Assembly: GCA_000155715.1 (NCBI GenBank)
Contig: DS990604.1
Span: 1 to 39,803 of the forward strand
Direction of reading: 5' to 3'
DNA from: a gamma proteobacterium HTCC5015
GTDB taxonomy: Bacteria; Pseudomonadota; Gammaproteobacteria; HTCC5015
DNA length: 39,803 nucleotides
This document shows, piece after piece, positions 10,227 to 38,518 of this stretch (position 1 is the stretch's first letter; the number at the start of each line of letters is the position of its first letter). The notes under the pieces were generated by a model, which was not told where the DNA came from, searched no databases, and saw nothing but the letters and a program-made list of their open reading frames with translations. The translations under genes and the position numbers were made by a program.

Positions 10227-11657
10227 ATGCGTTTGAAGCTTCCTAATTTTACGACCGCCAAGGTTCTTGTTCTCGGCGATGTCATGCTCGACCGTTACTG
10301 GTACGGCGATACCAGCCGGATTTCGCCGGAGGCGCCCGTGCCTGTGGTGAAGGTCGGGCAAATCGAGGAGCGCGCCGGTGGCGCGGGCAATGTGGCGCTG
10401 AATGTGACGGCCCTCGAGGGGAGGGCCGATCTTATTGGCCTAGTCGGGCAGGATGAGGCGGCGGGGAGCTTGTCGGCGGTGCTGTCTGGGCAGGGCGTGC
10501 AATGCCGTTTTCAAACGGTGGAAGGCAGTCATACGATTACCAAACTGCGGGTGATCAGCCGACAGCAGCAACTGATTCGCGCCGATTTTGAGGACGGTTT
10601 TTTGGCCTCGCCTAGTGGTTTGGAGGAAGCGGCGGTGCGCAAAGCCATGGCAGAGTCCCGTGTGGTGGTGCTGTCAGACTATGGCAAGGGTTCGCTCAGA
10701 GATATTCCCGCCTTAATAAAAATGGCGAGGGAGTCTAACTGCCCTGTTTTGATTGACCCGAAAGGCACCGATTTCTCGATCTACCGCGACGCGACCCTGA
10801 TCACCCCCAACCAAAGTGAGTTTGAAGCGGTGGTGGGCCCTTGTAATAGTGACGCAGAGCTAATGCAAAAAGGCGAGCAGTTGCGCGCCGAGCTCAATTT
10901 GGACGCCTTGCTGGTCACGCGCAGTGAGAAGGGCATGGTGCTGTTTCGTCGAGATTGTGAGCCCTTTATTCAGCCAACGCGGGCGCGGGAAGTGTTTGAT
11001 GTGACGGGCGCTGGCGATACGGTGATTGCCACCTTGGCGGCGAGCATTGCTGCGGGTTGCGATCTCGTGGAGGCTACTCAGTTGGCAAACATTGCCGCCG
11101 GTATCGTGGTGGGCAAACTGGGCACGGCGACAACCAATTTGCGTGAGTTGCAGGCGGCCATGTTAGAGCATGCGCCGCTAGAGCGCGGCGTGGTCTCGGA
11201 AGAATCGCTGGTTAGCTTGATTGAGCGCGCTCGCTCGAATGGCGAGCGCGTGGTGATGACCAACGGCTGCTTTGACATCTTGCACTCGGGGCATGTGGCC
11301 TACCTGTCTCAGGCTGCGGCCTTGGGCGATCGTTTAATTGTGGCAGTGAATTCAGACGATTCTGTGAAACGCCTCAAAGGTCCCGAGCGGCCTGTCAACG
11401 GCTTGGATCAGCGCATGGCCGTGTTGTCAGGCCTAGAGAGCGTGGATTGGGTGGTGCCTTTTTCAGAGGACACGCCCCAGCGTTTAATCGAAGCCTGTTT
11501 GCCCGATGTACTCGTTAAGGGCGGCGACTATCAACCCGAAGACATTGCGGGTGGCGCGGCGGTGCAGGCCAATGGGGGCGAAGTCCGTGTGCTCGATTTT
11601 GTCGATGGCTGCTCGACCTCACGGATTATCGAAGACATCCGCGCCCTCAAGGCTTGA
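10227..11657 (+). CDS. hldE: Bifunctional heptose-7-phosphate kinase / heptose-1-phosphate adenylyltransferase
   Basis: HldE performs two steps toward ADP-heptose for the LPS inner core: phosphorylation of D-glycero-beta-D-manno-heptose 7-phosphate at C1, and adenylylation of the 1-phosphate. At 476 residues it is the two-domain gammaproteobacterial form. The N-terminal ribokinase-like domain (about 1-315) shows [30 protein letters not shown] and the anion-hole motif DVTGAGDT with catalytic Asp264. The C-terminal nucleotidyltransferase domain (about 344-476) has [12 protein letters not shown], with HSGH at 353-356, and [11 protein letters not shown]. hldD, the next pathway enzyme, follows 250 bases downstream after an inserted repeat element. 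Confidence 0.98.
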
Positions 11658-11660
11658 GTG

Positions 11661-11869
11661 TTAGCCACAGAGGACACAGAGGCTTTATTGGTAGGGCTTC
11701 AGGCTCGCCACCCATGCTGGAAAAAATAATACAGCCTCATTGTTCTGAGCTCCGTATGCATTGTTCAGCTTATAGTGCGCTCACTGACATGGTCGTCGGC
11801 CTGAAGGCCGACCTACGCTACACTCAAAATCTCTGTGCTCTTTTATGCCCTTTAGGGTGCTGTGGCTAA
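11661..11869. repeat. Non-coding repeat element 1 with terminal inverted repeats
   Basis: This 209-base element fills most of the hldE-hldD gap. Its ends are perfect 10-base inverted repeats (TTAGCCACAG / CTGTGGCTAA), followed inward on the left by AGGACACAGAGG and on the right by a CTCTGTGCTC block. Inside is a perfect hairpin at 11795-11812 (GTCGGCC, loop TGAA, GGCCGAC) and a related degenerate copy near 11691-11710. The small reading frames in it resemble nothing. It matches elements 2 and 3 in this window at its ends. A non-autonomous mobile element (MITE-like) is my inference; no transposase is present. Confidence 0.75.
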
Positions 11870-11907
11870 CATAGTACAATGTCGGCAAATACTTCGGAGT
11901 TTTCACT

Positions 11908-12867
11908 ATGATCGTCGTCACTGGCGCCGCTGGCTTTATCGGCAGCAACCTCGTCAAGGCCCTCAATGATCGCGGCCGTACCGATATTTTAGCGGTGGAC
12001 GATCTGCGCGATGGCACCAAAATGTTCAATTTGGCCGACTTGGAAATTGCCGACTATGTCGACAAGGACGATTTTTTAGGCAGTGTGTTATCGGGTGATT
12101 TGGACGGGCAGGTTGAAGTAATTTTTCACCAGGGCGCCTGTTCCGACACCACCGAGTGGGACGGCAAGTTTGTGATGGAAAACAACTACGAATACACCAA
12201 GGATTTGTTCCACTTTTGCCAAGAACAGGGCGCGGCCTTTATTTATGCGTCCTCGGCTTCGGTTTACGGCGGTAGCAGCGAGTTTGTCGAGCGGCGCGAA
12301 GTTGAACGCCCGCTCAACATGTACGCCTATTCCAAGTTTTTATTCGACCAATACCTGCGGCGCCATTTGCCAGACTGCAAAGCCCCAGTTGCCGGTTTGC
12401 GCTATTTCAATGTGTATGGCCCCCGCGAACAGCACAAAGGCGGCATGTCGAGTGTGGCCTACCACTTTAATCAGCAACTCCGCCGCGATGGCGTTTGTCG
12501 TTTGTTTAAAGGCACAGAAGGCTACGAGGATGGCGAGCAACGCCGAGACTTTGTGTATGTAGGCGATGTCGTGGCCGTTAATTTATGGCTGTGGGATCAC
12601 CCCGAGGTCAGTGGTGTCTTTAACTGCGGCACGGGGCGTAGTCAGTCGTTTAACGATGTAGCCAAGGCCGTCATCGCTTGGCACGGCAAAGGTTCGATTG
12701 AGTACATTCCATTCCCCGAAAAGCTGAAAGGCGCGTACCAAAGTTATACTCAGGCCGACATGAATACTTTGCGCCAAGCGGGCTATGAAGCATCATTTAA
12801 AACGGTTGAAGAAGCCGTGCCCGAGTATATGGCGTGGTTGGCCGATCAGCACTTTATTGGTCAGTAG
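11908..12867 (+). CDS. hldD: ADP-L-glycero-D-manno-heptose 6-epimerase
   Basis: HldD converts ADP-D-glycero- to ADP-L-glycero-D-manno-heptose, the donor used by the heptosyltransferases WaaC and WaaF. The 319-residue product is an extended short-chain dehydrogenase. It has the NAD(P)-binding [16 protein letters not shown] at the N-terminus, the family-typical [24 protein letters not shown], and catalytic Tyr139/Lys143 in [11 protein letters not shown], then [26 protein letters not shown] site precedes the ATG. It lies downstream of hldE in the same direction, and the cytidylyltransferase gene starts three bases after its stop, so the latter two are surely co-transcribed. Confidence 0.98.
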
Positions 12868-12870
12868 AGT

Positions 12871-13278
12871 ATGAGTCAAAAAACCGTTGTTACATTTGGT
12901 ACTTTCGATCTTTTTCACTACGGTCATTTGAAAATTTTAGAGCGTGCTGCCGCGTATGGGGATCGCCTCATTGTGGGCATTTCTTCGGATCAGTTTAACT
13001 TTGAGAAAAAGAAAAAATACCCAGTTTTTAGTGAAGGTCACCGCATGGAGATCGTCTCTGCCATTCGCTATGTCGAGGGCGTTTTTCTCGAAGAAAGCTT
13101 TGAGAAAAAGCGCGAGTATTTAGTGGAGCATCAGGCAGATGTGTTTGTAATGGGAGACGATTGGCGCGGAAAGTTCGATGAATTCAAAGACATCTGTGAA
13201 GTGGTGTACTTAGAGCGCACTCCCGAGCTGTCGACTACCGAATACAAGTCGATTATTCGCAATTTGCTCGATAGCTGA
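12871..13278 (+). CDS. Glycerol-3-phosphate cytidylyltransferase (TagD/Gct-like)
   Basis: A 135-residue nucleotidyltransferase that most likely makes CDP-glycerol from CTP and glycerol-3-phosphate. It has the HxGH motif at residues 16-19 within TFGTFDLFHYGHL, a central MGDDWRGKFDEF stretch, and RTPELSTTEYKS near the end, corresponding to the RTEGISTT signature of the TagD family. It starts three bases after hldD and is convergent, with an eight-base gap, with a CDP-glycerol glycerophosphotransferase gene that would use its product. Other CTP-dependent cytidylyltransferases (for example ethanolamine-phosphate type) are possible but the TagF-like neighbour makes glycerol most likely. Confidence 0.88.
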   Translation: MSQKTVVTFGTFDLFHYGHLKILERAAAYGDRLIVGISSDQFNFEKKKKYPVFSEGHRMEIVSAIRYVEGVFLEESFEKKREYLVEHQADVFVMGDDWRGKFDEFKDICEVVYLERTPELSTTEYKSIIRNLLDS

Positions 13279-13286
13279 GTCTGTGG

Positions 13287-14378
13287 CTAATCAGCGGCGT
13301 GTCTTTTTAAGTAGTCTACAATGCGCTGTGAGCACAGCCCGTCGCGCGGGCCGACGACTTGGTCGCTAATCTCTAATCGCTCTTTTTCGAGTCGTTTCGG
13401 GTGCTGAATGTCTCGCTCCACAGCGGCTTTTAAAGCAGAGTATTTGGGCACTTTCTCGGCGAGTTTTTGGAAGGCTTCGGTGCTGGCGTCGAGACGCTTT
13501 TTCGCCTTGGCGCGGAAGGGGCCTCGGTAGGACCAGCGCAGATAGATAAAGCCGCAAATAATCACGGGCTTGTTGAGTGCTGCAAATTCATAAACAGCGG
13601 ATGAGGTGTCGGAAATCATTAAGTCAGCGGCACTCATAAAAGGCAGCAGTGAAAACTCTTCATCGCTGGCGAGGTAGACATTGTCAAAGCTGGCCCAGTG
13701 CGTGAGTTTTTTTAATTGATGGCGATATTTCTTTTTGTTGAGCGTGAAGTCGTGCGCTTTGATCAAGATATTGTAGTGACGAAAATCTTTAGGGAAGCGC
13801 CGAGGAAAATTTTCTAGCGAGCTGGGATAGAAAGTGGGCGCGTAAAGTAGCGTCTTCTTTTTGGGGTCTAGCCCTCGTCGGGTGAGAAATTGTGGTTCTT
13901 TATGGCGCTTATCGGGGGGCATAAGTGGGTCCAGCTTGGCAAAACCGCTTTCCACATAGGTCACATCGGGAAGCGCCTGTTTCAAAAATTGGCTGCGTCC
14001 GCGGCCCGATAAAAAGCGCACATCAAAGGCATTCAGCCCCGGGGCCAGTGTTGCCGCTTTAAAGCTAGAGTCTAGGCCGTGGAAAATTAAAGCCGTTTGA
14101 GTGGGCGGGTGAATACGCTCCATATTGGCAATGCCGTGGCCCAAAACAAACCAGTGCGGACGCTTTTGGTTGACCCTGTCGATCGCTTGCGTCTCGTCGT
14201 CGATCGCAATGCACTCAATGCCGTAGCGAGATTGAATTTGCTGTTCTAGGGCGGGGTGAACGGCGGGGTGGACAAGAATGTCGCAGCGCGCGCCTTCCAG
14301 CAATAGTGCCTTTAGAACCGGTTCGTATTGTGGAAAATAATAAGTGAACCGAATATCGAAAATTACATGCAAAGCCAT
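13287..14378 (-). CDS. CDP-glycerol glycerophosphotransferase family protein (TagF/TagB-like)
   Basis: A 363-residue enzyme expected to transfer phosphoglycerol from CDP-glycerol to a glycan or lipid acceptor. The GT-B-like fold shows HPAVHPALEQ, LIFHGLDSSFKAATL (the TagF HG motif region), VESGFAKLDPL, LLYAPTFYPSS, and the donor-site stretch DLMISDTSSAVYEFAALNKP near the C-terminus, equivalent to the DYSS motif of teichoic-acid enzymes. I place the start at MALHVIFDIRF; the frame remains open upstream to 14801 but that part runs antisense through waaF and looks unlike protein. It faces the cytidylyltransferase gene and diverges from waaF by 94 bases. The acceptor is probably LPS core or a surface polysaccharide. 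Confidence 0.85.
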   Translation of the reverse strand: MALHVIFDIRFTYYFPQYEPVLKALLLEGARCDILVHPAVHPALEQQIQSRYGIECIAIDDETQAIDRVNQKRPHWFVLGHGIANMERIHPPTQTALIFHGLDSSFKAATLAPGLNAFDVRFLSGRGRSQFLKQALPDVTYVESGFAKLDPLMPPDKRHKEPQFLTRRGLDPKKKTLLYAPTFYPSSLENFPRRFPKDFRHYNILIKAHDFTLNKKKYRHQLKKLTHWASFDNVYLASDEEFSLLPFMSAADLMISDTSSAVYEFAALNKPVIICGFIYLRWSYRGPFRAKAKKRLDASTEAFQKLAEKVPKYSALKAAVERDIQHPKRLEKERLEISDQVVGPRDGLCSQRIVDYLKRHAAD

Positions 14379-14472
14379 TGAGCAGAATCCGTTGTCGGCC
14401 GATATTTTGAGCCAGTGTGGTAAGATTTTACGCAAATTTTTCTTATATTTCAGAATTGTGACAGTGCGGCCG

Positions 14473-15486
14473 ATGGCGGATGAAGTGAACAATATTTTGG
14501 TGGTGGGACCCTCTTGGGTGGGCGACATGGTGATGGCGCAAAGCCTTTTCCAGTCGCTCAAGCGACAACACCCCCAAGCCAATATCGATGTGATTGCCCC
14601 CGCTTGGTCGTTGCCTGTGCTGGCTCGTATGCCGGAAGTGCGTCGCGGGCTCGCCTTGGCGGTGGGCCATGGCGAAGGTGGTCTTAAAAAGCGCTGGGCA
14701 TTGGGGCGCTCGCTGCGCGGGCAGTACGACTGGGCGATTGTGCTGCCGCGTTCGCTCAAAGCGGCGCTGGTGCCTTTTTTTGCGCGGGTGCCCGTGCGCA
14801 CGGGGTTCCTCGGTGAGATGCGCTATGGCCTGATTAACGATGTGCGCGTCTTTGATAAAACCGTACTCGATCAAACCGTCAAACGCTTTGTTGCGCTGGG
14901 TCAGCCGAGGGGAGCGGATGTGACGACACTCGAATTGTCTCACCCGAGCTTGACGGTGGATGGCACAGGGGCGTTGCGGGCGATGCAGCGTCTTGAATTA
15001 AAGGCAGATAAGCCCATTGTGGGCTTTATGCCCGGCGCGGAATACGGCCCCGCTAAGCAGTGGCCCGCGCAACATTTTGCCGATCTGGCCAAGAGCGTTG
15101 TTCAATTGGGTGGACAGGTGTGGACATTTGGCTCGGCTAAAGATCGCTCGGTGGGCGAGGAGATTGACCAGCTTTCCGGCGGCGTTACCACCAACCTCTG
15201 TGGAGAGACCTCGCTGGAAGAGGTGGTCGATCTGATGGGGCAGCTGGACATGGCGGTGAGTAACGATTCGGGCTTGATGCATGTGGCCGCGGCGACAGGC
15301 TGCTACGTACAGGCTATTTACGGCTCTTCCTCTCCCTTGTTTACGCCACCATTGACGGATCGAAGAGAGATACATTGGTTGCAAATAGACTGCAGCCCCT
15401 GTTTTGCGCGAACCTGTCAGTTTGGACACTACAACTGCTTGAAGCAGATAAGCCCCAGCCGAGTTCTGGACTCGATGTCACTGTAG
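14473..15486 (+). CDS. waaF: ADP-heptose:LPS heptosyltransferase II
   Basis: WaaF adds the second L-glycero-D-manno-heptose of the LPS inner core at the cytoplasmic face of the inner membrane. The product from the chosen ATG has 337 residues, near the family norm of about 345. Motifs include ILVVGPSWVGDMVMAQSLFQ at the N-terminus (the acceptor-side GD motif), FMPGAEYGPAKQWPAQHFA, and NDSGLMHVAAATG followed by AIYGSSSP in the donor site. The open frame extends to 14344 but the upstream part overlaps the divergent glycerophosphotransferase start. No strong ribosome site is visible, so the start is moderately sure. In Pseudomonas waaF directly follows ilvE; here other surface genes separate them. 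Confidence 0.93.
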   Translation: MADEVNNILVVGPSWVGDMVMAQSLFQSLKRQHPQANIDVIAPAWSLPVLARMPEVRRGLALAVGHGEGGLKKRWALGRSLRGQYDWAIVLPRSLKAALVPFFARVPVRTGFLGEMRYGLINDVRVFDKTVLDQTVKRFVALGQPRGADVTTLELSHPSLTVDGTGALRAMQRLELKADKPIVGFMPGAEYGPAKQWPAQHFADLAKSVVQLGGQVWTFGSAKDRSVGEEIDQLSGGVTTNLCGETSLEEVVDLMGQLDMAVSNDSGLMHVAAATGCYVQAIYGSSSPLFTPPLTDRREIHWLQIDCSPCFARTCQFGHYNCLKQISPSRVLDSMSL

Positions 15487-15590
15487 TGACAGAGATGGAC
15501 TAATGCCCAACAAGGCATGCGTTTCGTGTCATATTTCTCCAATACGGGCGTAGTAGCCTGTGAGCACTTATTTGAGATTTAGGTGAAATC

Positions 15591-16934
15591 ATGAGAGTCA
15601 CTGTTTTTGGTAGCGGTTATGTCGGTTTGGTCTCGGGAGCTTGTTTTGCCAACGCGGGCAACCAAGTCACTTGCGTTGACATTGACCCGCAAAAAATTGA
15701 GCGTTTACAGCAAGGTGACATCCCCATATACGAACCGGGCCTTAGCGAACTAATGGCGCACAATATCAGTGCGGGGCGTATAGATTTCACCACGGACGCC
15801 GCCGAGGCAGTTCGCTCGGCAGATATGATTTTTATTGCCGTGGGGACGCCGCCTGATGAGGACGGGTCGGCAGATCTACGCTATGTGTTGGCCGTTGCCA
15901 AGACGATTGGTGAAAACTTAGACGGCTATAAAGTCATTGTCGATAAGTCCACAGTGCCTGTAGGGACCGCCGATCAGGTGAAAGGTGTGGTCGCGCAGAC
16001 CTTGGCCGAGCGCGGCGAAAACATCGAGTTTGATGTTATTTCTAACCCGGAGTTTCTCAAGGAGGGCGCTGCTTTAGACGACTTTAATAAGCCTGATCGC
16101 GTGATCATTGGCGCAGACAGTGAGCGAGCCATTGCACTAGCGCGCGAGTTGTACGCGCCCTTCAATCGCAATCACGACCGTCTCATTGTGATGGACGTGC
16201 GCTCTGCAGAAATGACCAAGTATGCGGCCAACGCGATGTTGGCGACGAAAATCAGCTTTATGAATGAAATGGCCAATATTGCCGAGCGAGTGGGAGCGGA
16301 TATTGAGGCAGTTCGTCGCGGTATTGGTTCCGACCCACGCATAGGCTATCACTTCATTTACGCGGGTGCGGGTTATGGCGGCTCTTGTTTCCCCAAAGAT
16401 GTTAATGCCCTGCATCGGACGGCCCAGTCTGCCGGTGTGCAGTCCGATATGCTGGCGGCCGTGGAATCCACAAACCAACGGCAAAAGCAGACGATATACA
16501 CTAAATTGTCTGCGGCAATGGGTGGCGATTTAAGCGGAAAAACGATTGCCGTGTGGGGTTTGGCGTTTAAACCGAACACAGATGATATGCGCGAAGCGCC
16601 GAGCCGTGTGTTGATGGAAAGCCTGTGGCAAGCTGGCGCAAGGGTGCAAGCTTACGATCCAGAGGCCATGCAAGAAACGCGTCGCATCTACGGTGAGCGA
16701 GAGGAACTGACGCTGTGTGATGACCCCTATGCCGCCTTAAGCGGTACGGATGCTCTGGTAATTTGTACCGATTGGAAGAGTTTTACGAGCCCCGATTTTG
16801 CCGAGATAAAACGCGCCCTAGCGAATCCTATTATTATTGATGGCCGCAATCTCTACGATCCCCAGCGCATGGTCGAACTCGGTTTTGACTACTATGGCGT
16901 CGGCCGTGGTCTCAGTGTTCGGTCGGTGTTCTAA
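15591..16934 (+). CDS. UDP-glucose 6-dehydrogenase
   Basis: A 447-residue NAD-dependent enzyme that oxidises UDP-glucose to UDP-glucuronate in two steps, supplying acidic sugar for core or capsule. The N-terminal Rossmann motif is [18 protein letters not shown], followed by [12 protein letters not shown] and [13 protein letters not shown]. The catalytic cysteine is Cys266 in [14 protein letters not shown], preceded by the [14 protein letters not shown] substrate-binding stretch. The C-terminal domain has [17 protein letters not shown] and [10 protein letters not shown]. The GxGxxG dehydrogenase family also includes GDP-mannose and UDP-ManNAc dehydrogenases; the overall pattern favours Ugd/TuaD. 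An AGGTGA site precedes the ATG. Repeat element 2 follows immediately. Confidence 0.93.
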
Positions 16935-16940
16935 AGGATA

Positions 16941-17102
16941 AGTCACAGAGCACCCTAAAGCGCACAGAGGTTGTCTTGTGGACAATGTTAGCTTCGGTCA
17001 TTGCGAGGAGGCGTAGCCGACGCGGCAATCTGTTGGTGCATTCTATAGGCAGATCGCCGCGCCACTACACGGCTCGCGATGACAACCCCCAACTCTGTGA
17101 CT
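16941..17102. repeat. Non-coding repeat element 2 with terminal inverted repeats
   Basis: A 162-base element with perfect 10-base terminal inverted repeats (AGTCACAGAG / CTCTGTGACT). Its left end continues with CACCCTAAAG and CGCACAGAGG, which is the reverse-complement of the right end of element 1, so the two share a family. Its interior is an imperfect inverted repeat, 16997-17032 against 17050-17083, starting GTCATTGCGAGG and ending CGCGATGAC, which resembles a palindrome type common in many bacterial genomes. The right end overlaps the CTA (TAG) stop codon of the acyltransferase gene. Confidence 0.75.
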
Positions 17103-17775
17103 AAACGGTATAGCGATTGGCCTGTTCTAAGGCCTTGATGGTGTTTTCCATCTCTAGGCGCAGCGATTCTTGTACCTTTTCATCCATGCGCTTAGGCGCC
17201 TGTACGGGTTCACCAAGAGCGATAGTTACTTTTGAAAAAGGCTTGGGCAGCATAAAGCGATCCCAAGAGTTGAGGTGCCAAGAGCGGTTACAGGTAACTG
17301 CAATGGGCAGCATGGGTACTTTGGCAATTTGAGACAGCATAACGGCGCCCGATTTAAACTCAAAGGCGGGGCCGCGCGGGCCATCGGGCGTGATGACGGG
17401 CGAATAGCCCTTCTTGATAATTTGATAGAGATCCCTGAGCGCTTGTGCCCCTGTGCGGCTTGAGGAGCCGCGAACCACATCGACGCCCCACTCCTTCATG
17501 GCGATTGCTGCCATTTCACCGTCTTTTGAAGGACTGACCAAGGCACTTAATTTTAAGCCGTCATTTTTTCGTTTGTTTAAGACAAACTGCAATCCCATAA
17601 CATGGGCTTGATGCCAGTAGCACAGAATCACTGGCTGATCGTTGCGAATGAGTTGATTTAAATGCTCTTCGCCCACGACTCTTTCCACCTTGGTCGTGAG
17701 CCATAGCGTTTTTAAAAGCCCTTTGAACGCGGTGACCTTGAGCTTGAATTTCCAGTTGTGATCCACGTCGGACAT
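17101..17775 (-). CDS. DUF374-type lysophospholipid acyltransferase family protein
   Basis: A 224-residue membrane-associated acyltransferase-like protein. It matches the DUF374 (LPLAT) pattern: CYWHQAHVMGLQF near residue 60 in place of the classical HX4D block, VVRGSSSRTGAQALRDL, then VITPDGPRGPAFEFKSGAV and a PMLPIAVTCNRSWHLNSWDRF stretch. Members are often encoded in LPS loci and resemble lipid A late acyltransferases, though the substrate is rarely known. I choose the start at MSDVDHNWKF because AGAGG lies just before it; upstream codons run into repeat element 3. The stop codon lies within the end of repeat element 2. A role in acylating a core or lipid, possibly with the neighbouring acyl-ACP ligase, is speculation. 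Confidence 0.85.
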   Translation of the reverse strand: MSDVDHNWKFKLKVTAFKGLLKTLWLTTKVERVVGEEHLNQLIRNDQPVILCYWHQAHVMGLQFVLNKRKNDGLKLSALVSPSKDGEMAAIAMKEWGVDVVRGSSSRTGAQALRDLYQIIKKGYSPVITPDGPRGPAFEFKSGAVMLSQIAKVPMLPIAVTCNRSWHLNSWDRFMLPKPFSKVTIALGEPVQAPKRMDEKVQESLRLEMENTIKALEQANRYTV

Positions 17776-17809
17776 GGTAAGCCTCTGTGTTTTTGAGTGA
17801 CATGAATTG

Positions 17810-18015
17810 TAAGCCACCGAGGGCACAGAGAACATAGAGGGGGATACCGCCGTGATCAAACTGTAGGAGGCCCGCCCCGGGACGACAGTGCGTCGTCATT
17901 CCCGCGTAGGCGGGAATCCAGCGTCTTTGAGCGAGTGTGGCAGTAAAGCCACTAGGCTTCTGTCTCCGAAAGGTACCACTCCTGCAATCCTAGCTCTCCG
18001 TGACTCGGTAGCTAA
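17810..18015. repeat. Non-coding repeat element 3 with terminal inverted repeats
   Basis: A roughly 206-base element whose ends are imperfect inverted repeats (left TAAGCCACCGAGGGCACAGA, right the complement of TTAGCTACCGAGTCACGGAG). The ends match those of elements 1 and 2. The interior holds two hairpins: GACGAC/GTCGTC at 17881-17897 and ATTCCCGC/GCGGGAAT with loop GTAG at 17898-17917, the latter a motif seen as dispersed repeats in many proteobacteria. The right end covers the CTA (TAG) stop codon of the acyl-AMP ligase gene. Confidence 0.7.
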
Positions 18016-19973
18016 TTTTCCAGTTGCGATTGCAGGTAAGCGGCGACTTCGCGAATGGAGGGGTGGTCGAAGAAATCGGTGATTTCCAGTTTGTCGGGGT
18101 AGCGCTCATCGATTTCTTCATGCACTTGAGCCAAGGATAAAGAGCTAATGCCGCTGTCGAAAAAGTTGTCATCGAGGCTCAGCTTGGTCTCTTCGATGAC
18201 TTCGTCGCAGATGGCTTTGACTTCATTTTCAAGCGCATTGCCATCGTCTGATGTTTCACTACTGGCGTTGTTGAGTTGCGCGAGTTGCTGTTCAATGTGG
18301 CTAAAGTCGCCATTGAGATAGGCTTGTCCGAGGCGCGCGCGCTGAACCTTGCCGCTCGTGGTTCGGGGAACGACGGGGGTGGGTAGGATGGCGTCTACCG
18401 ACAGGCCGCTGGCTTCGTTAACGCGGCGTCGAATGGCCGATGCCTGCTCGCTAAAGGCCTTTAGATCCTCCATCTGATCCTTTTTGACGTGAACAAAACC
18501 GATGATACTGTCCTCTACGGCGTCATCGCCTTCGCGCACACCGACAAAAACCATTTTTCCCAGTTCCAAGCCCGATAGGTCTTCCAGATCGTGAGGGTAG
18601 TAGTTCAGGCCGTTACTGAAAATAATGTCTTTGGCGCGCCCCGTAATATAAAGCTGCCCTTGGTGCATAAAGCCGAGATCGCCGGTATTGAACCAGCCGT
18701 TTTGAAAGGCGGCTGCGTTTGCCGCGTCGTTGTTGAAGTACCCCGAGGTGACGGTGGGGCCCTGAATGCAAATCGAACCAATACGTCGCTCGTCGAGTGG
18801 CTCGCCCTTGTCGTCTTGAATGTTGACTTCGATGTCATCGACCGCACTGCCAACGCAGACAAAATGCAGCGCATTGGCATCATTGTCGTCAAGCAGCGCG
18901 ACTGTGTCGTCGGGCTTGAGTTGCTGTCGGTCGACACTGAGCCAAGTAAAGGGCGTCTCCGCCTCGGGGAAGGTCGCGGCCAAAGTGGCTTCGGCCAAGC
19001 CGTATACGGTGAACATGCTGGTGTCTTTTAAACCGTGCTGCCCCATTCTTTGTAAAAACTCTTGGCACAGAGGGACAGAAATGGGCTCGGCGCCGTTGTA
19101 AATGACGCGAACGCAACTTAAATCGAGATGTGTCGGTTCGCTGTCTAGGCGCTTGAGGTAGTGCTTAAAACCAAAGTTGGGTGAGCACAGTACACTGGCG
19201 CGGTGTTCGCTGACTTTGTCCAGCCACAGGTGGGGTTGGCGACTAAAGGTTTCTGCGCGCATGTTGATTTGGCTCACGCCGCGCAACATAGGCGTGATGT
19301 GAAAGCCTATCAAACCCATATCGTGGGTCAGTGGCATCCAGCTAAACGTGATGTCGTCGTCGCGGTAGAGGCCGCCATTGGCGATGGCGGCGCTATTGAT
19401 GATTAGGTTGCGGTGGGTGAGTACAACGCCTTTGGGGTCGCTGGTTGAGCCCGACGAAAATTGAATAAAGGCGAGGTCGTCGCCCTTGACCTGAGTGATG
19501 GTCGCGGCTTTGGAATCGCCCCGCGCCACCTGTTCTAGAGTTAGCACATGGGGCGCTTTCGAGTCGGTTTTCTCGGCGTGGGCGGTGAGCCGTTCGGCCA
19601 AGGCGTCGTGGGTGTAGACCGTTGCTTGTTGAAATTGCTGGCTGACTTTCAGTAATTTGTTCAAGTGTTCTGTGGTCGGACCGCTGGAGACGGGAACGGC
19701 AATCACCCCCCCGTAGAGGCAAGCCCAGAAGGCTTCAATAAAAGCTAGGTTGTCCTCCAGAAAGAACACCAAAGGATCGCCCGCCTTGAGGCCGTGTTCC
19801 TGCTGTAAACCCGCCAGTAGAGCGAGTGCGCGCTCGCGAATGTCTGCGTAGGCCCAAGTCGTTTCGCTGCCATCGTGGGCGACATAGGTGAGCGTGTGCT
19901 TGCCGCTAGCGCGCTGATCAAGCATCTCGGTGAGGGTTTGAAAGGCATCGGGGCTAATGCGGTGTTGGCTCAT
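18012..19973 (-). CDS. Fatty-acyl-AMP ligase fused to an acyl carrier protein
   Basis: A 653-residue two-part enzyme. Residues 1 to about 560 form an ANL-superfamily ligase: FIQFSSGSTSDPKGVVLTH (P-loop), SWMPLTHDMGLIGF, VYGLAEATLAATF, WFNTGDLGFMHQGQLYITGR and KDIIFSNGLNYYPHDLED. The HDMGLIG block and the NGLNYYPHDLE form are typical of fatty-acyl-AMP ligases rather than acyl-CoA ligases. Residues about 575-653 form a carrier domain with DNFFDSGISSLSLAQ; Ser611 is the expected phosphopantetheine site. The enzyme should activate a fatty acid as acyl-AMP and load it on its own ACP. It lies 27 bases downstream of the P450 gene in one operon, and a PPTase gene able to activate the ACP is adjacent. 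The final product is unknown. Confidence 0.92.
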   Translation of the reverse strand: MSQHRISPDAFQTLTEMLDQRASGKHTLTYVAHDGSETTWAYADIRERALALLAGLQQEHGLKAGDPLVFFLEDNLAFIEAFWACLYGGVIAVPVSSGPTTEHLNKLLKVSQQFQQATVYTHDALAERLTAHAEKTDSKAPHVLTLEQVARGDSKAATITQVKGDDLAFIQFSSGSTSDPKGVVLTHRNLIINSAAIANGGLYRDDDITFSWMPLTHDMGLIGFHITPMLRGVSQINMRAETFSRQPHLWLDKVSEHRASVLCSPNFGFKHYLKRLDSEPTHLDLSCVRVIYNGAEPISVPLCQEFLQRMGQHGLKDTSMFTVYGLAEATLAATFPEAETPFTWLSVDRQQLKPDDTVALLDDNDANALHFVCVGSAVDDIEVNIQDDKGEPLDERRIGSICIQGPTVTSGYFNNDAANAAAFQNGWFNTGDLGFMHQGQLYITGRAKDIIFSNGLNYYPHDLEDLSGLELGKMVFVGVREGDDAVEDSIIGFVHVKKDQMEDLKAFSEQASAIRRRVNEASGLSVDAILPTPVVPRTTSGKVQRARLGQAYLNGDFSHIEQQLAQLNNASSETSDDGNALENEVKAICDEVIEETKLSLDDNFFDSGISSLSLAQVHEEIDERYPDKLEITDFFDHPSIREVAAYLQSQLEN

Positions 19974-20000
19974 GGTGATCCTGTGATCGAGTAAAAAGGC

Positions 20001-21347
20001 TTAAAGGGCAGTGCGGCGTTTCTTCAATCGCATATAGATGGGGGCCGCGCTGCGCAAATTGATTTCGGGTTCAATATCGACGTTACCACTTTTTGAAGCG
20101 TCGAAAACGAGTTCGTAGCGACGGGCAAAATAGGCTAAATGCAGTTGCATTTCCACCATGCCAAAAAAATCGCCGATACAGCGGCGCGGGCCGCCTGAAA
20201 AGGGAATGAAAGAATAGCGGTTGCCGTATTGTGGTTGTGACTTGTCGAATCGCTCGGGAATAAACGCCTCCGGCTCGGGCCATAGGTCGGCGCGCCGCTG
20301 AATAAACCACGGCGAGAGAAATACGTCGGCGCCGGCGGGAATGCGGTAGTCGCCAACGGAGTCATCGCCTAGTGCTTTGCGGCTGAAGAGCCATACCGCA
20401 GGGTAGAGCCGCAGTGTTTCATTGAGCACTTGCTCGGTGTAGGCCAGCTTGGGAAGGTCCTCGAAGGTGGCAAATTCTGGAAAGGCTAAATCGTCGATTT
20501 CGCGATGGAGAAGGGCGGTTTTATCGGGGTTTTGCGAGAGCAAATACCAGCACCAGTTGAGCGTGTTAGCGCCTGTTTCATGGCCGGCCACGATCAGTGT
20601 CATGACTTCGTCGATCAGCTCCTTGTCGCTCATGGGGTCGCCGTTTTCATCGCGGGCATTCATGAAAACACTGAGGAAATCGACTTCTTCGCGCTGTTCC
20701 GCGCGGCGGCGGTCGATAATTGCTTGCACTTCCTTGCCGAGGCCGCGAAAGCGAGCCACCAGCTTGAGGTCGCGGGCCAAATCTTCCGAGAAAATGCTAA
20801 AGGGGTGGCCGCCGCCGTGTTCTTCCAACATGCGCTCAAAGTCACGGCTGAACAGGGCGCGCAAAATAATGCGCAGCGACAGCTCGTTCATGGCCTCGGT
20901 TAAATCAAAGGCCTCACCGCTATCGGCTAGCGATTCCCACCGCTCCGCCAGTTCGCGGTTGCTTTGTTCCATATAGGTGGTGAGTTGGGCGACGAAGCGG
21001 CGGTGAAAGCCGGGTTGTATCATTTTTTTATGGCGCTTCCAGATGTCGCCATCGAGTACAATAATGCCGTTACCCATCAGCATCTTAACCAACTCAAAGC
21101 CTGCGCCCTTGTGGTAATTGGGATGATTGTTGACCAGAATGTTTTTGACAAACTCGGGCTTGTTGATCAGATAGGCGTCACCCTTGCGCGTTTTTTGCGG
21201 CAGACGGCAGATATCGGGGTGGGCCGATAGCGCTTTTTTAACCAGCGGAAAACTGGTTTGATTGGGGCCAATATCGACGGCAGTCTGTTCAGAGCTCTGA
21301 AACAGCGGTGGGTCGAGCAGGGCATTGCCGGCGGTGTTATCCGTCAT
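20001..21347 (-). CDS. Cytochrome P450
   Basis: A 448-residue soluble heme monooxygenase. The I-helix oxygen-activation motif is IVAGHETGANTLNW, the K-helix ExxR is in LNETLRLYPAVW, and the heme-ligand loop is FIPFSGGPRRCIGDFFG with Cys390 as the thiolate ligand. The N-terminus has no membrane anchor. The likely substrate is a fatty acyl chain, possibly bound to the ACP of the ligase encoded just downstream; bacterial P450s acting on acyl-ACP (for example P450BioI) give precedent. No ferredoxin or reductase gene is nearby, so redox partners must come from elsewhere. It diverges from the PPTase gene with only 23 bases between starts. No strong ribosome site precedes the ATG. Confidence 0.95.
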   Translation of the reverse strand: MTDNTAGNALLDPPLFQSSEQTAVDIGPNQTSFPLVKKALSAHPDICRLPQKTRKGDAYLINKPEFVKNILVNNHPNYHKGAGFELVKMLMGNGIIVLDGDIWKRHKKMIQPGFHRRFVAQLTTYMEQSNRELAERWESLADSGEAFDLTEAMNELSLRIILRALFSRDFERMLEEHGGGHPFSIFSEDLARDLKLVARFRGLGKEVQAIIDRRRAEQREEVDFLSVFMNARDENGDPMSDKELIDEVMTLIVAGHETGANTLNWCWYLLSQNPDKTALLHREIDDLAFPEFATFEDLPKLAYTEQVLNETLRLYPAVWLFSRKALGDDSVGDYRIPAGADVFLSPWFIQRRADLWPEPEAFIPERFDKSQPQYGNRYSFIPFSGGPRRCIGDFFGMVEMQLHLAYFARRYELVFDASKSGNVDIEPEINLRSAAPIYMRLKKRRTAL

Positions 21348-21370
21348 AGATTACTTAAGAGTCGTATTGC

Positions 21371-21979
21371 GTGGCGCAAGTATATTACAAACGCTTGTCA
21401 AATCAGATAGATGCGGGGCAATTCGAGGCCGTGTTGGCGCGCTTGCCCGATGCGAAACAACAGCAGTTACTGCGCCGAAACCCCAGTATCCGCCGAAACA
21501 GCTTGGCGCTCTACGCCTTTCTCAATGAGGTTTTGAGCGAAAACCCCAATTATCCCGCACTCGAGTCGCTGCGTTTTGACGAGCGCGGTTGGCCCCACTG
21601 GCCCGAGGGTGACGCGACGCCCCCCGCGTGGCTGAGTTTGTCCCACAGTCGCGAATGGTTGGCGGTGGCGATCAGCCGAGTTGGCCCTGTGGGGGTCGAT
21701 GTGGAGCAGCTTCGCGGCCAAACAGCCCAGACATTTAAACGCTATTTTCACGACGACGAGCTCGCTTGGGCGGGTGACGATCCCCAGCGGTTTTTACAGC
21801 TGTGGACGGCTAAGGAAGCTGTGGCAAAGGCCGAGGGGCAAGGTGTCTTGTCGATGAAAAAGTGGTTGGTTTTCCCGACAAAGAATCAAGTTCAAGCTTG
21901 TGATGGTGAACAGGTTTGGGGCTTAGAAAATTATTGGGTCGATTGTGAGGCGTGTGTGGCGCTTGTATCGACCCTTTAA
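21371..21979 (+). CDS. 4'-phosphopantetheinyl transferase (Sfp type)
   Basis: A 202-residue enzyme that moves phosphopantetheine from CoA to a serine of a carrier protein. Motifs are LSLSHSREWLAVAIS, the metal-binding VGVDVEQLR, and WTAKEAVAKAEGQGV, the Sfp/Gsp W-x-x-K-E-A signature. The start is a GTG (21371) with AAGAG nine bases upstream; no in-frame ATG lies near. It diverges from the P450 gene. The FAAL-fused ACP two genes away is the obvious local target, though such enzymes often serve several carriers. Downstream it converges on rlmKL with a 30-base gap. Confidence 0.93.
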   Translation: MAQVYYKRLSNQIDAGQFEAVLARLPDAKQQQLLRRNPSIRRNSLALYAFLNEVLSENPNYPALESLRFDERGWPHWPEGDATPPAWLSLSHSREWLAVAISRVGPVGVDVEQLRGQTAQTFKRYFHDDELAWAGDDPQRFLQLWTAKEAVAKAEGQGVLSMKKWLVFPTKNQVQACDGEQVWGLENYWVDCEACVALVSTL

Positions 21980-24282: not shown

Positions 24283-25299
24283 TTAGGATGACGAGTTTTC
24301 CGAAGCGACAGAGCTCAAAGTCAGCGCCGGATGGGGCCGGTGCTTGAATTTCTCTAGTGGGTGGTAGTTCTCAGAAGCAAAGAGTTGTCGGCCTTTGAGC
24401 CAACGATTTTCGATCCAACTCAATACCACATATTTAAAGCGCTCGTGTTTGTGTTGTTCTCTGGTCTCTGGGGCGTCGGTTTCTTTGAAATACAGTGAGC
24501 TTTGCCAATCCAAGGAGCGTATGGTGTCAGACATGACGCGAGGATGGGTTGCTTGATAGGTTGGAATCGGAGCTAAGGGGCCGTAGTCATAATCTTTTGG
24601 TGTGGACTGAGCTAGAGATGAGGACGCGGCTTCCCCGCGATGATTGCGAGTGAAATAGACGGTCTTTTTGCGCATGGCTATGGGAGGGCGGACCCAGCCA
24701 TAGTGAAAAATTCGCGCCCCCGAGTGAACACAGTGCAGTTTTTTAGTGCCTTTCTTTTCGCGATAGGACACGCCGTCAAAATTGGGAATGCGACGGAAAC
24801 TTTGCGCTGAGCGAAAAGAGTGTATTTCCGGGTCGTTGCGGATTAAGCGGATTTCCTCTTTATACCAAGCGTGAGAACAGTGCACATGATCGTAGTCGCC
24901 CCAAAAGTGCAGGTAATCAAATAACATACCGTCGACGCGTTTATCATTCAGCCAATTCTCACATGATTGTCGGATAATCGGCAGGTCGTCTTCATGCAGT
25001 ACTTCGTCACCTTGCAAATAGAGCAGCCAGTCGCCAGTGCAGGCGTTTTTGGCAATGTCGGTTTGATGGGCGTGCTCCATGCCCCGTGGGTATTTTTCTA
25101 AATCCCACACGGTATCAATAATGCGAATTTTATCACTGCCGAGGGCTTCAATTTTTTCGCGCGTATCATCGTCGGGGTCGGAGTCGCCGAGCGCGATCAC
25201 AAATTCGTCGACTAGTGGCAGGGCACTTTGGATGGATTCAATGATGGGGTAAAACAGTTTGCTACCGTTTCTTAAAAAAGTGAAGCCGCTAATTTTCAT
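24283..25299 (-). CDS. Glycosyltransferase family 2-like protein
   Basis: A 338-residue GT-A-fold protein. The N-terminal part shows ISGFTFLRNGSKLFYPIIES, LVDEFVIALGDSDPDDDT, and then a LYLQGDEVLHEDDLP block, which corresponds to the metal-binding D-x-D/x-D-E region of WaaE/KdtX-type glucosyltransferases. It lies 42 bases after the GT9 gene and in the same direction, and this pair is divergent from Kdo kinase, so it probably adds a sugar to LPS core. The C-terminal half (about 200-338) has no motif I can name. No clear Shine-Dalgarno site is visible before the ATG. Confidence 0.85.
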   Translation of the reverse strand: MKISGFTFLRNGSKLFYPIIESIQSALPLVDEFVIALGDSDPDDDTREKIEALGSDKIRIIDTVWDLEKYPRGMEHAHQTDIAKNACTGDWLLYLQGDEVLHEDDLPIIRQSCENWLNDKRVDGMLFDYLHFWGDYDHVHCSHAWYKEEIRLIRNDPEIHSFRSAQSFRRIPNFDGVSYREKKGTKKLHCVHSGARIFHYGWVRPPIAMRKKTVYFTRNHRGEAASSSLAQSTPKDYDYGPLAPIPTYQATHPRVMSDTIRSLDWQSSLYFKETDAPETREQHKHERFKYVVLSWIENRWLKGRQLFASENYHPLEKFKHRPHPALTLSSVASENSSS

Positions 25300-25341
25300 G
25301 AGTAATTTGTTCAGTGACGCGAATGGGAATAGGCTTTAGAT

Positions 25342-26415
25342 TCAATGTCTTTGAGTATCTAAAAGCTGATCGATTTTAGCACAAACGGATGACACTTTAA
25401 TGAAGTTCATGGCCTCAGGGTTGCGCACCCGTTGACCCCAGGCGGCGCGATCGACGTCCAAGTCGTACTCCGCCTTGAGGGCTTGGGGGTACGCGTTTAC
25501 CGCGTAATCCAAGCTGAGGTAGGGCCCAGTGCGATAGGGGTTGGAGGTGGCAAATAGGCCAACCACGGGGGTGCCGACGGCGGTGGCCATATGGGCAGGC
25601 CCCGTGTCGGGAGACACCATCAGCACAGCTCGATCGAGTAGGGCGAGCAGGCCCTTGAGGCTGGTTTGGCCGACGAGATTTGTTGGGGTGTGCCGAGCGT
25701 GTCGCACGATTGCCGCGGCCATTTCCGTTTCGATGTTATCGGGGCCACCGCTCAGTACAGTGTGCAAGCCGTAGGTTTCTGCGGCGTAGTCGATCACTTC
25801 CGCATAGTACTCCGCTTTCCAATTGCGCCAGTTGCGCGAGCGGTTGCTGGTACAAGCGTTGATGACCAGTAGCTTTTGCGAGCGCTCTAGCACCCGATCG
25901 ATTTCGCTTTTAGCGCTGTCGGGAATGGGAATGTCCCAGCGCAGTTCGCGCTCGTGGAGCCCCAGTGCTTTGGCAAATTCAAAAAAACTGTCGAGCACAT
26001 GTTGTTGGGAAACGGCGGCAATACGGGCGTTGGTAAAAAGGCTTTGTTTGTCTTTGGCGCGGTCTTGGTCGTAGCCGAGCTTCAGTGGTGCTTTAATTAG
26101 TGTGCTGGCCAAGCTGGCTCGCATGGCGACTTGCATGTGCAGAAGCACATCAAATTGACGGCCTTTAAGTTGCCGGCGTAAATCGAGGTAGGCGCGCCAG
26201 CCTCGACTTTTGTCAAAAACAATAAATTCAACGTCATCGAGGTCTTTTAGCAATTGGTACTCGGCTTTCCCAATGACCCAGGTAATGTTTGTCTCGGGCC
26301 AGTGCTTTTGCAGTGTCCGCACTAGCGGCACGACATGCGTGCAATCACCAATGGCGGAGAGCCGCAGCAGGCATAGCGATTGGGGAGCGTGTTGTAGAGG
26401 TAGAGTGCTGGTCAT
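25342..26415 (-). CDS. Glycosyltransferase family 9, heptosyltransferase I-like
   Basis: A 357-residue GT-B protein of the LPS heptosyltransferase family. It starts near LLRLSAIGDCTHVVPLVRTL, similar to WaaC; continues with ITWVIGKAEYQLLKDL, LLHMQVAMRASLAS, LVINACTSNRSRNWRNW, and the donor-site motif MVSPDTGPAHMATAVGTPVVGLF with ATSNPYRTGPY. The start at 26415 is chosen because the frame further upstream overlaps the divergent Kdo kinase gene region and looks non-coding. Since a WaaF is encoded at 14.5 kb and no other WaaC is seen, this could be the heptose I enzyme, but WaaQ-like or other roles are possible. First gene of a two-gene operon with the GT2 gene. Confidence 0.87.
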   Translation of the reverse strand: MTSTLPLQHAPQSLCLLRLSAIGDCTHVVPLVRTLQKHWPETNITWVIGKAEYQLLKDLDDVEFIVFDKSRGWRAYLDLRRQLKGRQFDVLLHMQVAMRASLASTLIKAPLKLGYDQDRAKDKQSLFTNARIAAVSQQHVLDSFFEFAKALGLHERELRWDIPIPDSAKSEIDRVLERSQKLLVINACTSNRSRNWRNWKAEYYAEVIDYAAETYGLHTVLSGGPDNIETEMAAAIVRHARHTPTNLVGQTSLKGLLALLDRAVLMVSPDTGPAHMATAVGTPVVGLFATSNPYRTGPYLSLDYAVNAYPQALKAEYDLDVDRAAWGQRVRNPEAMNFIKVSSVCAKIDQLLDTQRH

Positions 26416-26502
26416 CGCGCTTGGGTCTGGGATAATGTGCGCAGTATATCGAATCTTGCCTTGTGGGTAAGCGGATAGGCAGCGAAAGAGGTGGCTCACA
26501 CA

Positions 26503-27276
26503 ATGGCCGTAATCAAAGAGCAAACGCTTCGCGTGGGGCGACAAGTCATTTTGTACGATGCTGAAGCCCTTTCGGCGGTGCCACAGACGGCGCTACCCTA
26601 TTTGTTCGAGCCCGCTCATATCCAGCAAAAAGGCTGGCTACAGCGTATCGCCCACGGCCGTGGCGAGACATGGTTTTATCGCTGGCAGGAGAGCGACTTA
26701 GAGTTGGTGTTGCGTCACTATCGCCGAGGTGGCTTGGTGGGCAAGTTTAATCCCGATCTCTACTGGGGCTTGCGCGTGGAAAATAGCCGCCCCTGGAGAG
26801 AGTGGCGACTGCTGTGTCAATTGGCCGAGTGGGGTCTGCCCGCACCGGTGCCCGCCGCGGTACGCTTTTTGAATAGTCCGCTGTTTTATCGCGCGGATTT
26901 GTTGACGCATCAGATTCACGGTGTCGAACCCTTAGGCGATGTTTTACAGCAGCGCGAGCTGGCCAGCGAGCGCTGGGCGCAGCTGGGCGCTTTAATTGCG
27001 CAGTTTCATCAGCGCGGCGTCTATCACGACGATCTCAACGCGCAGAATATTCTGCTGGGCCAAGATCAAGACTATTTAATTGATTTTGACAAAGGCGAGT
27101 TGCGCTCCCCCTGTCGAGTAGAGTACAGCGTTCGCGGCAAGGGCTGGGCGGGTGCAAATTTACAGCGCCTAAAACGCTCTTTGCACAAAATAGAAAGCCG
27201 CTCTGAAACTTTTTATTTTAGTGCGTCAAACTGGCTCAGCTTACTGGATGGCTACAGGGGGGCTGAGCCGAGTTAG
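26503..27276 (+). CDS. kdkA: 3-deoxy-D-manno-octulosonic acid (Kdo) kinase
   Basis: KdkA phosphorylates the 4-OH of the first Kdo residue on lipid A, as in species with a single phosphorylated Kdo (Haemophilus, Vibrio, Shewanella). The 257-residue product is family length. It is a eukaryotic-like kinase fold with GLVGKFNPDLYWG, SRPWREWRLLCQLAEWGLP, the catalytic loop YHDDLNAQNILL (Asp176/177, Asn179), and the metal-binding DFDKGELR (Asp194, Asp196). The ATG at 26503 is preferred over an upstream GTG at 26491 because the GAGG site overlaps that GTG. It is divergent from the GT9 gene and its stop overlaps the stop of sixA by four bases. Confidence 0.94.
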   Translation: MAVIKEQTLRVGRQVILYDAEALSAVPQTALPYLFEPAHIQQKGWLQRIAHGRGETWFYRWQESDLELVLRHYRRGGLVGKFNPDLYWGLRVENSRPWREWRLLCQLAEWGLPAPVPAAVRFLNSPLFYRADLLTHQIHGVEPLGDVLQQRELASERWAQLGALIAQFHQRGVYHDDLNAQNILLGQDQDYLIDFDKGELRSPCRVEYSVRGKGWAGANLQRLKRSLHKIESRSETFYFSASNWLSLLDGYRGAEPS

Positions 27277-27874: not shown

Positions 27875-29002
27875 GTGAAATTCTCTAACTCTCTATTCGC
27901 TTCCATTTTAATGGTACTGCTTTTAAGCGCCTGCCGCATTGACCCCGACTGGTCGGTAAGCGTGAGTGGGGTCGATTCTCAGAGCGCGGTACAGGCGATA
28001 CTGCCCGCGATGGATCAATCGGCTGTGTTGGTGACAGCGAGCTCCCAGCGCAATTGGATGTTAAAGCGCTATAGCCAGCAGGGGCTCATGCTCAATGAAC
28101 AGTCTCTTCAGGGGACGGCAAGGGCGACATTGGTCGATAGCCAGTACTACGATGGACGATACTACTTATTGATGGACAACGCTCAGGGCAGCGAACTGCG
28201 TGTTTATACTGAGCAGTTTTCCCTCGCTTGGCGCCAATCGTTTGCCACCGCCGATCTGCGCCAGTTGGTGGTGCAGGGAACTCGCGTTTATCTCAGTGGC
28301 GATCGCAGCTTAGTGCTCAGTCAGCAAGGGCGTTTGCTGACGCAAGTGGATCACGCCGGCAGCGTTTACACCGAACTGCAAGTGGGCTTGTTTGGCGATA
28401 TCTATGTGGCGAATAAGTCTAGCGTTGCCGCCTACACCCAAGAGGGTGGCCAGCTGTGGCAGCGCGTTACAACGGCGAGGAAAGTCGTCAATAGCGTGAG
28501 CTTGCAGTGGGCGTCGGGCGAATTGTTTTACGCTCAAGCCAGCGATGACGGTTCGGGCGTAACGGCGACGATGCTCTCGGCGCGAACGGGGGATGTTAAA
28601 TGGCAGCGCGAGCTGGCGGCACTCGATGCCAATCCCCATGTACGACACTTCCCCTCACAGTTTTTGGTGCGCGGCGATGGCGTGGTTGTGGTGCTTCAAT
28701 CCACCGCGACACTGCGACAATTTACGGCGCTGGGAAGCAACCATGGCAAGCCCCAGTGGCAGGTCGATTACAGCTCGCGCGGCGCCGAGGTGGCCAAACT
28801 GGCGGTGGGGCTGGATGAAGAGTCTCTCGTGGTCATCGGTCAGGGTCGCACGGAGCAGTTTTCCAGTGAGGGAAAACGTGTGGCTTGGCACACAGCGGTG
28901 GCACCAGTGGCTGAGGGCGGACAGTTATTGGTCGTCGACACTGGGATTTATGTGGCGCAAGAGCACGATGGCGAGTGGCGCCTGAGTTACTTTGCTCGCT
29001 AA
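27875..29002 (+). CDS. Lipoprotein with PQQ-type beta-propeller (function unknown)
   Basis: A 375-residue predicted lipoprotein. The signal peptide ends with the lipobox LLLSAC (cysteine about residue 20). The rest forms repeated four-strand blades with WxR and GxxxW patterns (VLVTASSQRNWMLKRYSQQG, LAWRQSFATADLRQL, GQLWQRVTTARKVVN, GDVKWQRELAALD, GKPQWQVDYSSRG), consistent with a PQQ-like propeller as in BamB, but the overall sequence is not BamB-like enough to name. The start is a GTG with CAGGAG six to seven bases upstream. It stands alone between sixA and trmA, which read away from and toward it. The role is unknown; envelope protein interaction is plausible. Confidence 0.8.
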   Translation: MKFSNSLFASILMVLLLSACRIDPDWSVSVSGVDSQSAVQAILPAMDQSAVLVTASSQRNWMLKRYSQQGLMLNEQSLQGTARATLVDSQYYDGRYYLLMDNAQGSELRVYTEQFSLAWRQSFATADLRQLVVQGTRVYLSGDRSLVLSQQGRLLTQVDHAGSVYTELQVGLFGDIYVANKSSVAAYTQEGGQLWQRVTTARKVVNSVSLQWASGELFYAQASDDGSGVTATMLSARTGDVKWQRELAALDANPHVRHFPSQFLVRGDGVVVVLQSTATLRQFTALGSNHGKPQWQVDYSSRGAEVAKLAVGLDEESLVVIGQGRTEQFSSEGKRVAWHTAVAPVAEGGQLLVVDTGIYVAQEHDGEWRLSYFAR

Positions 29003-38411: not shown

Positions 38412-38447
38412 AGTTTGATGTTGGTTTTCGCCGTTTGTCATCAAACT
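38412..38447. promoter_or_regulatory. Perfect spaced inverted repeat upstream of the desaturase gene
   Basis: AGTTTGATG (38412-38420) and its exact complement CATCAAACT (38439-38447) are separated by 18 bases, 71 bases before the desaturase start and 49 after the hydantoinase stop. It could be an operator or a stem, but there is no T-run after it. It is not the DesT or FabR consensus that I recall. Confidence 0.35.
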
Positions 38448-38518
38448 GCCTTGCGACTTTCATAGACCCTACATTGCCTCCCTTTTATACTGCGACTTCT
38501 ATAGAAACAGGCTACGCC

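Follow-up and report, generated by a model that had tools for sequence, protein, structure and literature searches.

A recurrent fatty-acyl-AMP ligase-carrier module with lipid A-type acyltransferase partners in HTCC5015 and its relatives

Organization of the cassette

The 39,803-nucleotide stretch analyzed here (positions 1 to 39,803 of contig DS990604.1, assembly GCA_000155715.1, of the gamma proteobacterium HTCC5015; the window in what follows) carries a cassette of four genes, encoding a cytochrome P450, a fatty-acyl-AMP ligase with a C-terminal acyl carrier protein domain (FAAL-ACP), a 4'-phosphopantetheinyl transferase (PPTase) and a DUF374 acyltransferase. An earlier note, made from the letters alone, had placed these genes within 17101-21979; the range covers all four, the Pfam matches bear out their identities, and the gene calls and domain scans show them to be real, full-length family members. 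FAAL-ACP together with a lipid A-type acyltransferase constitutes a recurrent module, usually accompanied by a P450.

The P450 gene (20001-21347, minus strand) encodes 448 amino acids matching PF00067 (E 7e-73). The FAAL-ACP gene (18012-19973, minus strand; 653 amino acids) matches PF00501 (E 1e-57) and, over residues 585-647 (18033-18221, minus strand), the carrier family PF00550 (E 6e-11), with the codon of Ser611 at 18141-18143. The DUF374 gene (17101-17775, minus strand; PF04028, E 1.5e-25) was read from the ATG at 17775, giving about 224 amino acids; its open reading frame (ORF) opens at a TTG at 17859, and the ATG is the preferred start because it has AGAGG upstream and fits the relatives better. 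The FAAL-ACP stop and the DUF374 start are separated by 236 bp, and the gap contains a perfect inverted repeat at 17898-17917, ATTCCCGCGTAGGCGGGAAT, present as a single copy within the window. The PPTase gene (21371-21979, plus strand, GTG start; 202 amino acids, PF01648, E 4e-13) is of the Sfp/HetI/AcpT type and is divergent from the P450 gene. As the earlier note had stated, no nonribosomal peptide synthetase (NRPS) or polyketide synthase (PKS) domain is found among the window genes scanned.

Conservation in relatives

Relatives were gathered with a profile of three FAAL-ACPs, which gave 80 named loci, mostly from gammaproteobacterial metagenome-assembled genomes, together with Salinisphaera shabanensis, Cycloclasticus and some betaproteobacteria (81 loci with the window). 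The loci were scanned with hidden Markov models (HMMs) built in this analysis; 50 of the 81 have enough flank to be counted as full-context loci, and the neighborhood was defined as 4 kb around FAAL-ACP. DUF374 is present in 39/50 of these neighborhoods, an LpxL-type acyltransferase in 10/50 and both in 5/50, with at least one of the two in 44/50. The P450 lies directly upstream of FAAL-ACP in 33/50, and PPTase is found in 20/50. The commonest layout (18 loci) has DUF374 divergent from P450-FAAL-ACP, and the same arrangement with PPTase behind DUF374 is seen in 8 loci; the window departs from these, its DUF374 gene lying 3' of FAAL-ACP in the same orientation, which is an unusual layout. The set of P450, FAAL-ACP and acyltransferase thus recurs across dozens of unrelated gammaproteobacteria, and the co-occurrence check that had been proposed came out positive. 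The P450 is missing at 17 of the 50 loci (a few of them through assembly gaps), and the acyltransferase is still there in 12 of these 17, hence FAAL-ACP and the acyltransferase form the core. The P450, first described as one of the cassette's members, is a common addition and not an obligatory one. An acyltransferase, the role for which the earlier note had suggested DUF374, proved to be the conserved partner; that LpxL-type enzymes replace DUF374 in other lineages goes beyond that note.

The association also holds for whole genomes. Among 369 gammaproteobacterial genomes (FAAL-ACP called above 500 bits, one very long ORF excluded), DUF374 is present in 20/26 genomes with FAAL-ACP versus 29/343 others (Fisher p 7e-15), and the two genes lie within about 4 kb of each other in 19 of the 20 genomes holding both. 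At least two of the six FAAL-ACP genomes without DUF374 have an LpxL-type gene beside FAAL-ACP (L131, L140), and others are cut by contig ends. These tests in relatives and genomes argue that the cassette is not a chance assembly. Gammaproteobacteria in the GTDB sense takes in the betaproteobacterial lineages, and it is to this class that the system looks confined, since 398 genomes sampled across the phylum yielded a single additional strong match, which lies in a long ORF and comes from outside the class. The 'FAAL only' locus L064 was left out of the tree, its match lying inside a very long ORF that is probably an NRPS or PKS, and an apparent P450-FAAL gene fusion in L078 is really an assembly gap (X in frame).

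Outside the cassette, a sample of 72 neighbors gave no other conserved pathway genes, apart from scattered regulators and housekeeping genes. Cluster 8 of the neighbor analysis was discarded, its translation indicating DUF374 read in the wrong frame. In the Steroidobacteraceae-like and betaproteobacterial loci L050, L061, L079, L083, L095, L099, L049, L106 and L117, a membrane fusion protein/resistance-nodulation-division (MFP/RND) efflux operon is found downstream of FAAL-ACP, with an LpxL-type gene after it in several cases. Its occurrence near the cassette in several lineages would fit a small cluster for a secreted lipid metabolite or oxidized free fatty acid, in which the acyltransferase releases the chain to a small acceptor and the RND pump exports the product; FAAL, ACP, P450 and PPTase are, moreover, typical of lipid natural-product clusters. 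We consider a secreted product improbable, as RND genes are present in only 11/81 loci each and were not found in the window, the neighbor tally shows no recurrent NRPS/PKS, thioesterase or reductase gene next to the cassette, and the partner enzymes are envelope-lipid acyltransferases.

The acyltransferase partner

The DUF374 family corresponds to LpxJ, a family of late acyltransferases of lipid A (PMC6148475). The window protein, the only DUF374 in the genome, scores above the PF04028 family cut-off, which places it in the LpxJ family, an assignment going beyond that of the earlier note. Rickettsia LpxJ requires W60, H61, D86, D132, W172 and D173 and has no HX4D motif (PMC6148475). The corresponding window residues are W54, H55, D85, D131, W171 and D172; in an alignment of the window protein with 36 relatives W54, H55, D131, W171 and D172 never vary, D85 is almost invariant, and the D-D-W-D spacing is that of LpxJ. 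The window protein has no HX4D motif. The DUF374 model (predicted local distance difference test, pLDDT, 94) has PlsC and PatA as its closest folds.

In the DUF374 tree, the FAAL-linked proteins, including that of the window, and a PPTase-linked copy of genome G001 form one clade (support 99, a starred value). DUF374s of other classes fall outside it, several of them adjoining waaA, as LpxJ would; the window protein does not group with these waaA-adjacent proteins, adjacency being a proxy criterion and not a published one. The tree left out the characterized Helicobacter and Rickettsia LpxJ sequences, and all trees were made by a quick method, with several long branches flagged. Two further PF03279 enzymes and WaaA are encoded elsewhere in the HTCC5015 genome, and since two PF03279 enzymes are already there the window DUF374 can be regarded as an extra acyltransferase.

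Several side observations concern DUF374 genes. In G001, which belongs to the family of the window, DUF374 adjoins PPTase (L178:7998-9361) and no FAAL-ACP was found in the genome; the pair is perhaps a remnant of the cassette. Two tandem DUF374 genes lie downstream of FAAL-ACP in Endozoicomonas sp. G2_2 (L075:12004-13451) and Salinisphaera shabanensis (L087:12016-13456). A DUF3108 (PF11306) gene adjoins DUF374 in nine loci, including L065:8181-8945 and L074:6969-7724.

The linked LpxL proteins belong to PF03279 and most of them carry HX4E. Mapped onto the FAAL-ACP tree, the partner labels (DUF374, LpxL or both) change 8 times, and at least 5 changes are forced for DUF374 by well-supported branches. 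The acyltransferase partner has thus been swapped several times between two families of lipid A enzymes, a case of non-orthologous replacement. That both families serve the same FAAL-ACP is the strongest argument for lipid A, or something similar, as the acceptor.

The same loading and transfer could end on a different acceptor, by re-acylation of a lysophospholipid or acylation of another glycolipid or aminolipid, following the logic of an Aas-like acyl-ACP synthetase with its acyltransferase. The modeled PlsC/PatA-like fold of DUF374 would be compatible with this, NCBIfam names some PF03279 relatives lysophospholipid acyltransferases, and the cassette is not tied to lipopolysaccharide (LPS) genes in most relatives. 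We nevertheless find such an acceptor unlikely: the protein lacks the HX4D motif required by PlsC-type enzymes and retains all LpxJ-critical residues, the DUF374 enzymes characterized in PMC6148475 and in the papers that it cites are lipid A acyltransferases, and enzymes of two separate lipid A acyltransferase families alternate as neighbors of the same FAAL-ACP.

The ligase, its carrier domain and the PPTase

The top relatives of the ligase in the structural database are FAALs, among them the McyG ligase-carrier didomain 4r0m (matched over residues 8-648), 3pbk and 3kxw, which score well above CoA ligases. Residues about 335-372, which we take to be the FAAL-specific insertion, align nearly gap-free to Legionella FAAL 3kxw/3lnv. 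Judged by these matches, the window enzyme is a FAAL-type ligase, not a CoA ligase or a glycine ligase. Ser611, already named as the carrier serine, is invariant together with Ser610 and Leu612 in a three-sequence alignment, and the G-x-S-S-L carrier motif is present in most relatives. The PPTase, whose matches to the NCBIfam HetI/AusB/AcpT models fall under their cut-offs, is predicted to turn the ACP domain of FAAL-ACP into the holo form. In the Woeseiaceae-like loci L065, L085, L090, L092, L094, L098, L103 and L118, some of which are without a P450, an extra FabH-like KASIII gene lies directly 3' of FAAL-ACP.

The P450

The window P450 is the sole P450 of the genome, and its A-G-x-E-T and ExxR motifs and heme ligand Cys390 are conserved across 35 sequences. 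The P450 and FAAL-ACP genes share a strand in 75/75 usable pairs, with a median gap of 11 nt between the HMM envelopes. In a fold search with the P450 model (pLDDT 91), CYP184A1, one of whose entries contains oleic acid, was the closest match and CYP97 came next; the top matches also included CYP4B1 and BM3.

Since CYP184A1, CYP4B1 and BM3 include enzymes acting on free fatty acids, the P450 might oxidize a free fatty acid or the finished lipid instead of the ACP-bound chain, the remaining steps being those proposed below; this alternative overlaps both with delivery to lipid A and with delivery to another acceptor. The tight same-strand coupling of P450 and FAAL-ACP speaks against it, as do the precedents in which the P450 partner of an adenylation-peptidyl carrier protein (A-PCP) didomain acts only on the loaded substrate (PMC3578932), and we would grant it a minor share of the probability.

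A more specific role would be in biotin synthesis, with the P450 cleaving the loaded chain to give pimeloyl-ACP, as P450BioI acts on acyl-ACP and offers a precedent. This role was rejected as highly improbable: BioH-like and BioC-like genes lie side by side in the genome (106 and 149 bits, each short of its curated cut-off) as candidates for another route to pimeloyl-ACP, P450-less versions of the cassette exist, and the conserved partner is a lipid acyltransferase.

Genomic setting

In the window, the cassette is flanked on both sides by genes of the LPS inner core. On one side (10227-16934) are HldE (10227-11657), HldD (11908-12867), a PF04464 glycerophosphotransferase-like protein, WaaF (glycosyltransferase family 9, GT9; 14344-15486) and UDP-glucose dehydrogenase; on the other (24283-27276) are a weak GT2-like protein, a GT9 heptosyltransferase-like gene and Kdo kinase (26491-27276). 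Further GT9 genes and a WaaL-like ligase are also present, and waaA-lpxL is located further along the same contig. The LPS-locus setting described earlier is therefore real in the window; as a general feature of the cassette it was dropped, because GT9 adjoins DUF374 in only five loci.

Elsewhere in the window, the PF04464 protein, which is CDP-glycerol glycerophosphotransferase-like (13287-14801), overlaps the long form of the WaaF ORF. A 375-residue ORF without a Pfam match (27875-29002) lies between the genes for Kdo kinase and a tRNA methyltransferase, and a fatty acid desaturase-like protein (38435-39751) matches DDE_Tnp_ISL3 in its C-terminal part.

Comparison with known systems

The closest system in logic is AlmEFG, whose transferase AlmG is LpxL-like. 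In Vibrio cholerae, the acyl group is loaded onto a carrier protein by an AMP-forming ligase and then passed to lipid A by the dedicated transferase AlmG (PMC12930378). The combination of ligase, carrier and a transferase of a lipid A-type family is shared, with lipid A as the putative acceptor here; AlmE, however, uses glycine, is separate from the carrier AlmF and has no P450 beside it, whereas in the cassette FAAL is fused to ACP and the transferase is DUF374 or belongs to another LpxL subfamily. The cassette is thus AlmEFG-like in logic yet not a member, the ligase being of the FAAL type and not a glycine ligase.

LpxJ of Helicobacter, Campylobacter and Rickettsia (PMC6148475) belongs to the same Pfam family as the window DUF374, which keeps the six essential residues and likewise lacks HX4D. 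The class hallmark of LpxJ is delivery of an acyl chain to the 3' position of lipid A. The FAAL-linked genes differ in forming a clade of their own and in their association with a dedicated FAAL-ACP, while known LpxJ replaces LpxM and the paper describes no link to FAAL (PMC6148475). In the Qui18/Qui15, NovH/NovI and nikkomycin pairs, the substrate is loaded by a ligase-carrier didomain and hydroxylated by a P450 in its carrier-bound state, and Qui15 acts on Trp only when this is loaded on Qui18 (PMC3578932); these pairs handle amino acids in antibiotic biosynthesis, and release in the echinomycin proposal is by a thioesterase, not a lipid acyltransferase (PMC3578932). The AcpXL-LpxXL cluster of Rhizobiaceae likewise has a special ACP, from which an LpxL-type enzyme receives a special fatty acid for lipid A, but the chain is built de novo by FabZ/FabF enzymes, with neither FAAL nor P450 (PMC11901934). 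LitD/LitF, a FAAL with a stand-alone ACP from lipid natural-product clusters, also loads a fatty acid on ACP, but feeds amino-acid acylation and has no lipid A-type acyltransferase (PMC10616846). The linked condensation or ketosynthase modules of NRPS/PKS lipid clusters are not seen in the window genes or in the neighbor tally. As the earlier note had supposed, no description of the FAAL-ACP/P450/lipid A-type acyltransferase set was found in the open-access literature, subscription papers being outside the search.

Proposed pathway

We propose, giving it slightly less than an even chance, that the four genes form a dedicated oxidize-and-transfer acylation module, with lipid A or one of its precursors as the recipient of the chain. 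PPTase would put phosphopantetheine onto Ser611 of FAAL-ACP, and FAAL would activate a free fatty acid as acyl-AMP and load it on its own ACP; both of these steps follow from domain identity. The P450 would then oxidize the chain, most probably by hydroxylating its carrier-bound form. Finally, DUF374 (the LpxL-type enzyme in other lineages) would take the acyl group from ACP and attach it through a hydroxyl to lipid A or its precursor, where it may serve as an extra or alternative late acyl chain, alongside those added by the canonical LpxL-type enzymes.

Fatty-acid loading and the transfer partner are well supported, and the link to a lipid A-type acyltransferase is a genetic one, observed as co-occurrence. 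Oxidation on the carrier is suggested by the tight P450/FAAL-ACP coupling, the Qui18/Qui15 precedent and the correlated pairwise divergences of P450, FAAL and DUF374 (Spearman 0.74-0.79, reached by 0/500 permutations), a correlation also expected from shared ancestry alone; this step, the position of oxidation and lipid A as acceptor are what we infer. The observation made in the earlier note is confirmed, and its interpretation, with oxidation of the loaded carrier and an LPS or lipid A acceptor still putative, is partly supported.

Several points weigh against the proposed pathway. Shared ancestry affects all the permutation and tree tests. The P450-less loci indicate that the module does not depend on oxidation. 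Beyond the cassette the flanking genes vary, with LPS genes recurring beside it only in one five-locus group, and in the window itself the 236 bp gap leaves DUF374 only loosely coupled to FAAL-ACP. The modeled DUF374 fold also matches PlsC, a phospholipid acyltransferase, and the RND pump that neighbors the cassette in several lineages might suggest that the product is exported.

More broadly, and still more tentatively, the cassette may represent a widespread, undescribed gammaproteobacterial form of lipid A remodeling, in which fatty acids from the free pool are oxidized by a P450 on a dedicated carrier and installed as late acyl chains by a special LpxJ subfamily or an LpxL-type enzyme. This reading makes a clear prediction for the lipid A mass spectra of cultured carriers. 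If it is correct, lipid A would acquire hydroxyl groups independently of LpxO, a function could be assigned to a distinct DUF374 branch, and P450 chemistry would be tied to envelope assembly, with a compact enzyme set for making oxidized acyl-ACPs. Many environmental gammaproteobacteria would then decorate their outer-membrane lipid with oxidized fatty acids, by a route absent from the literature searched.

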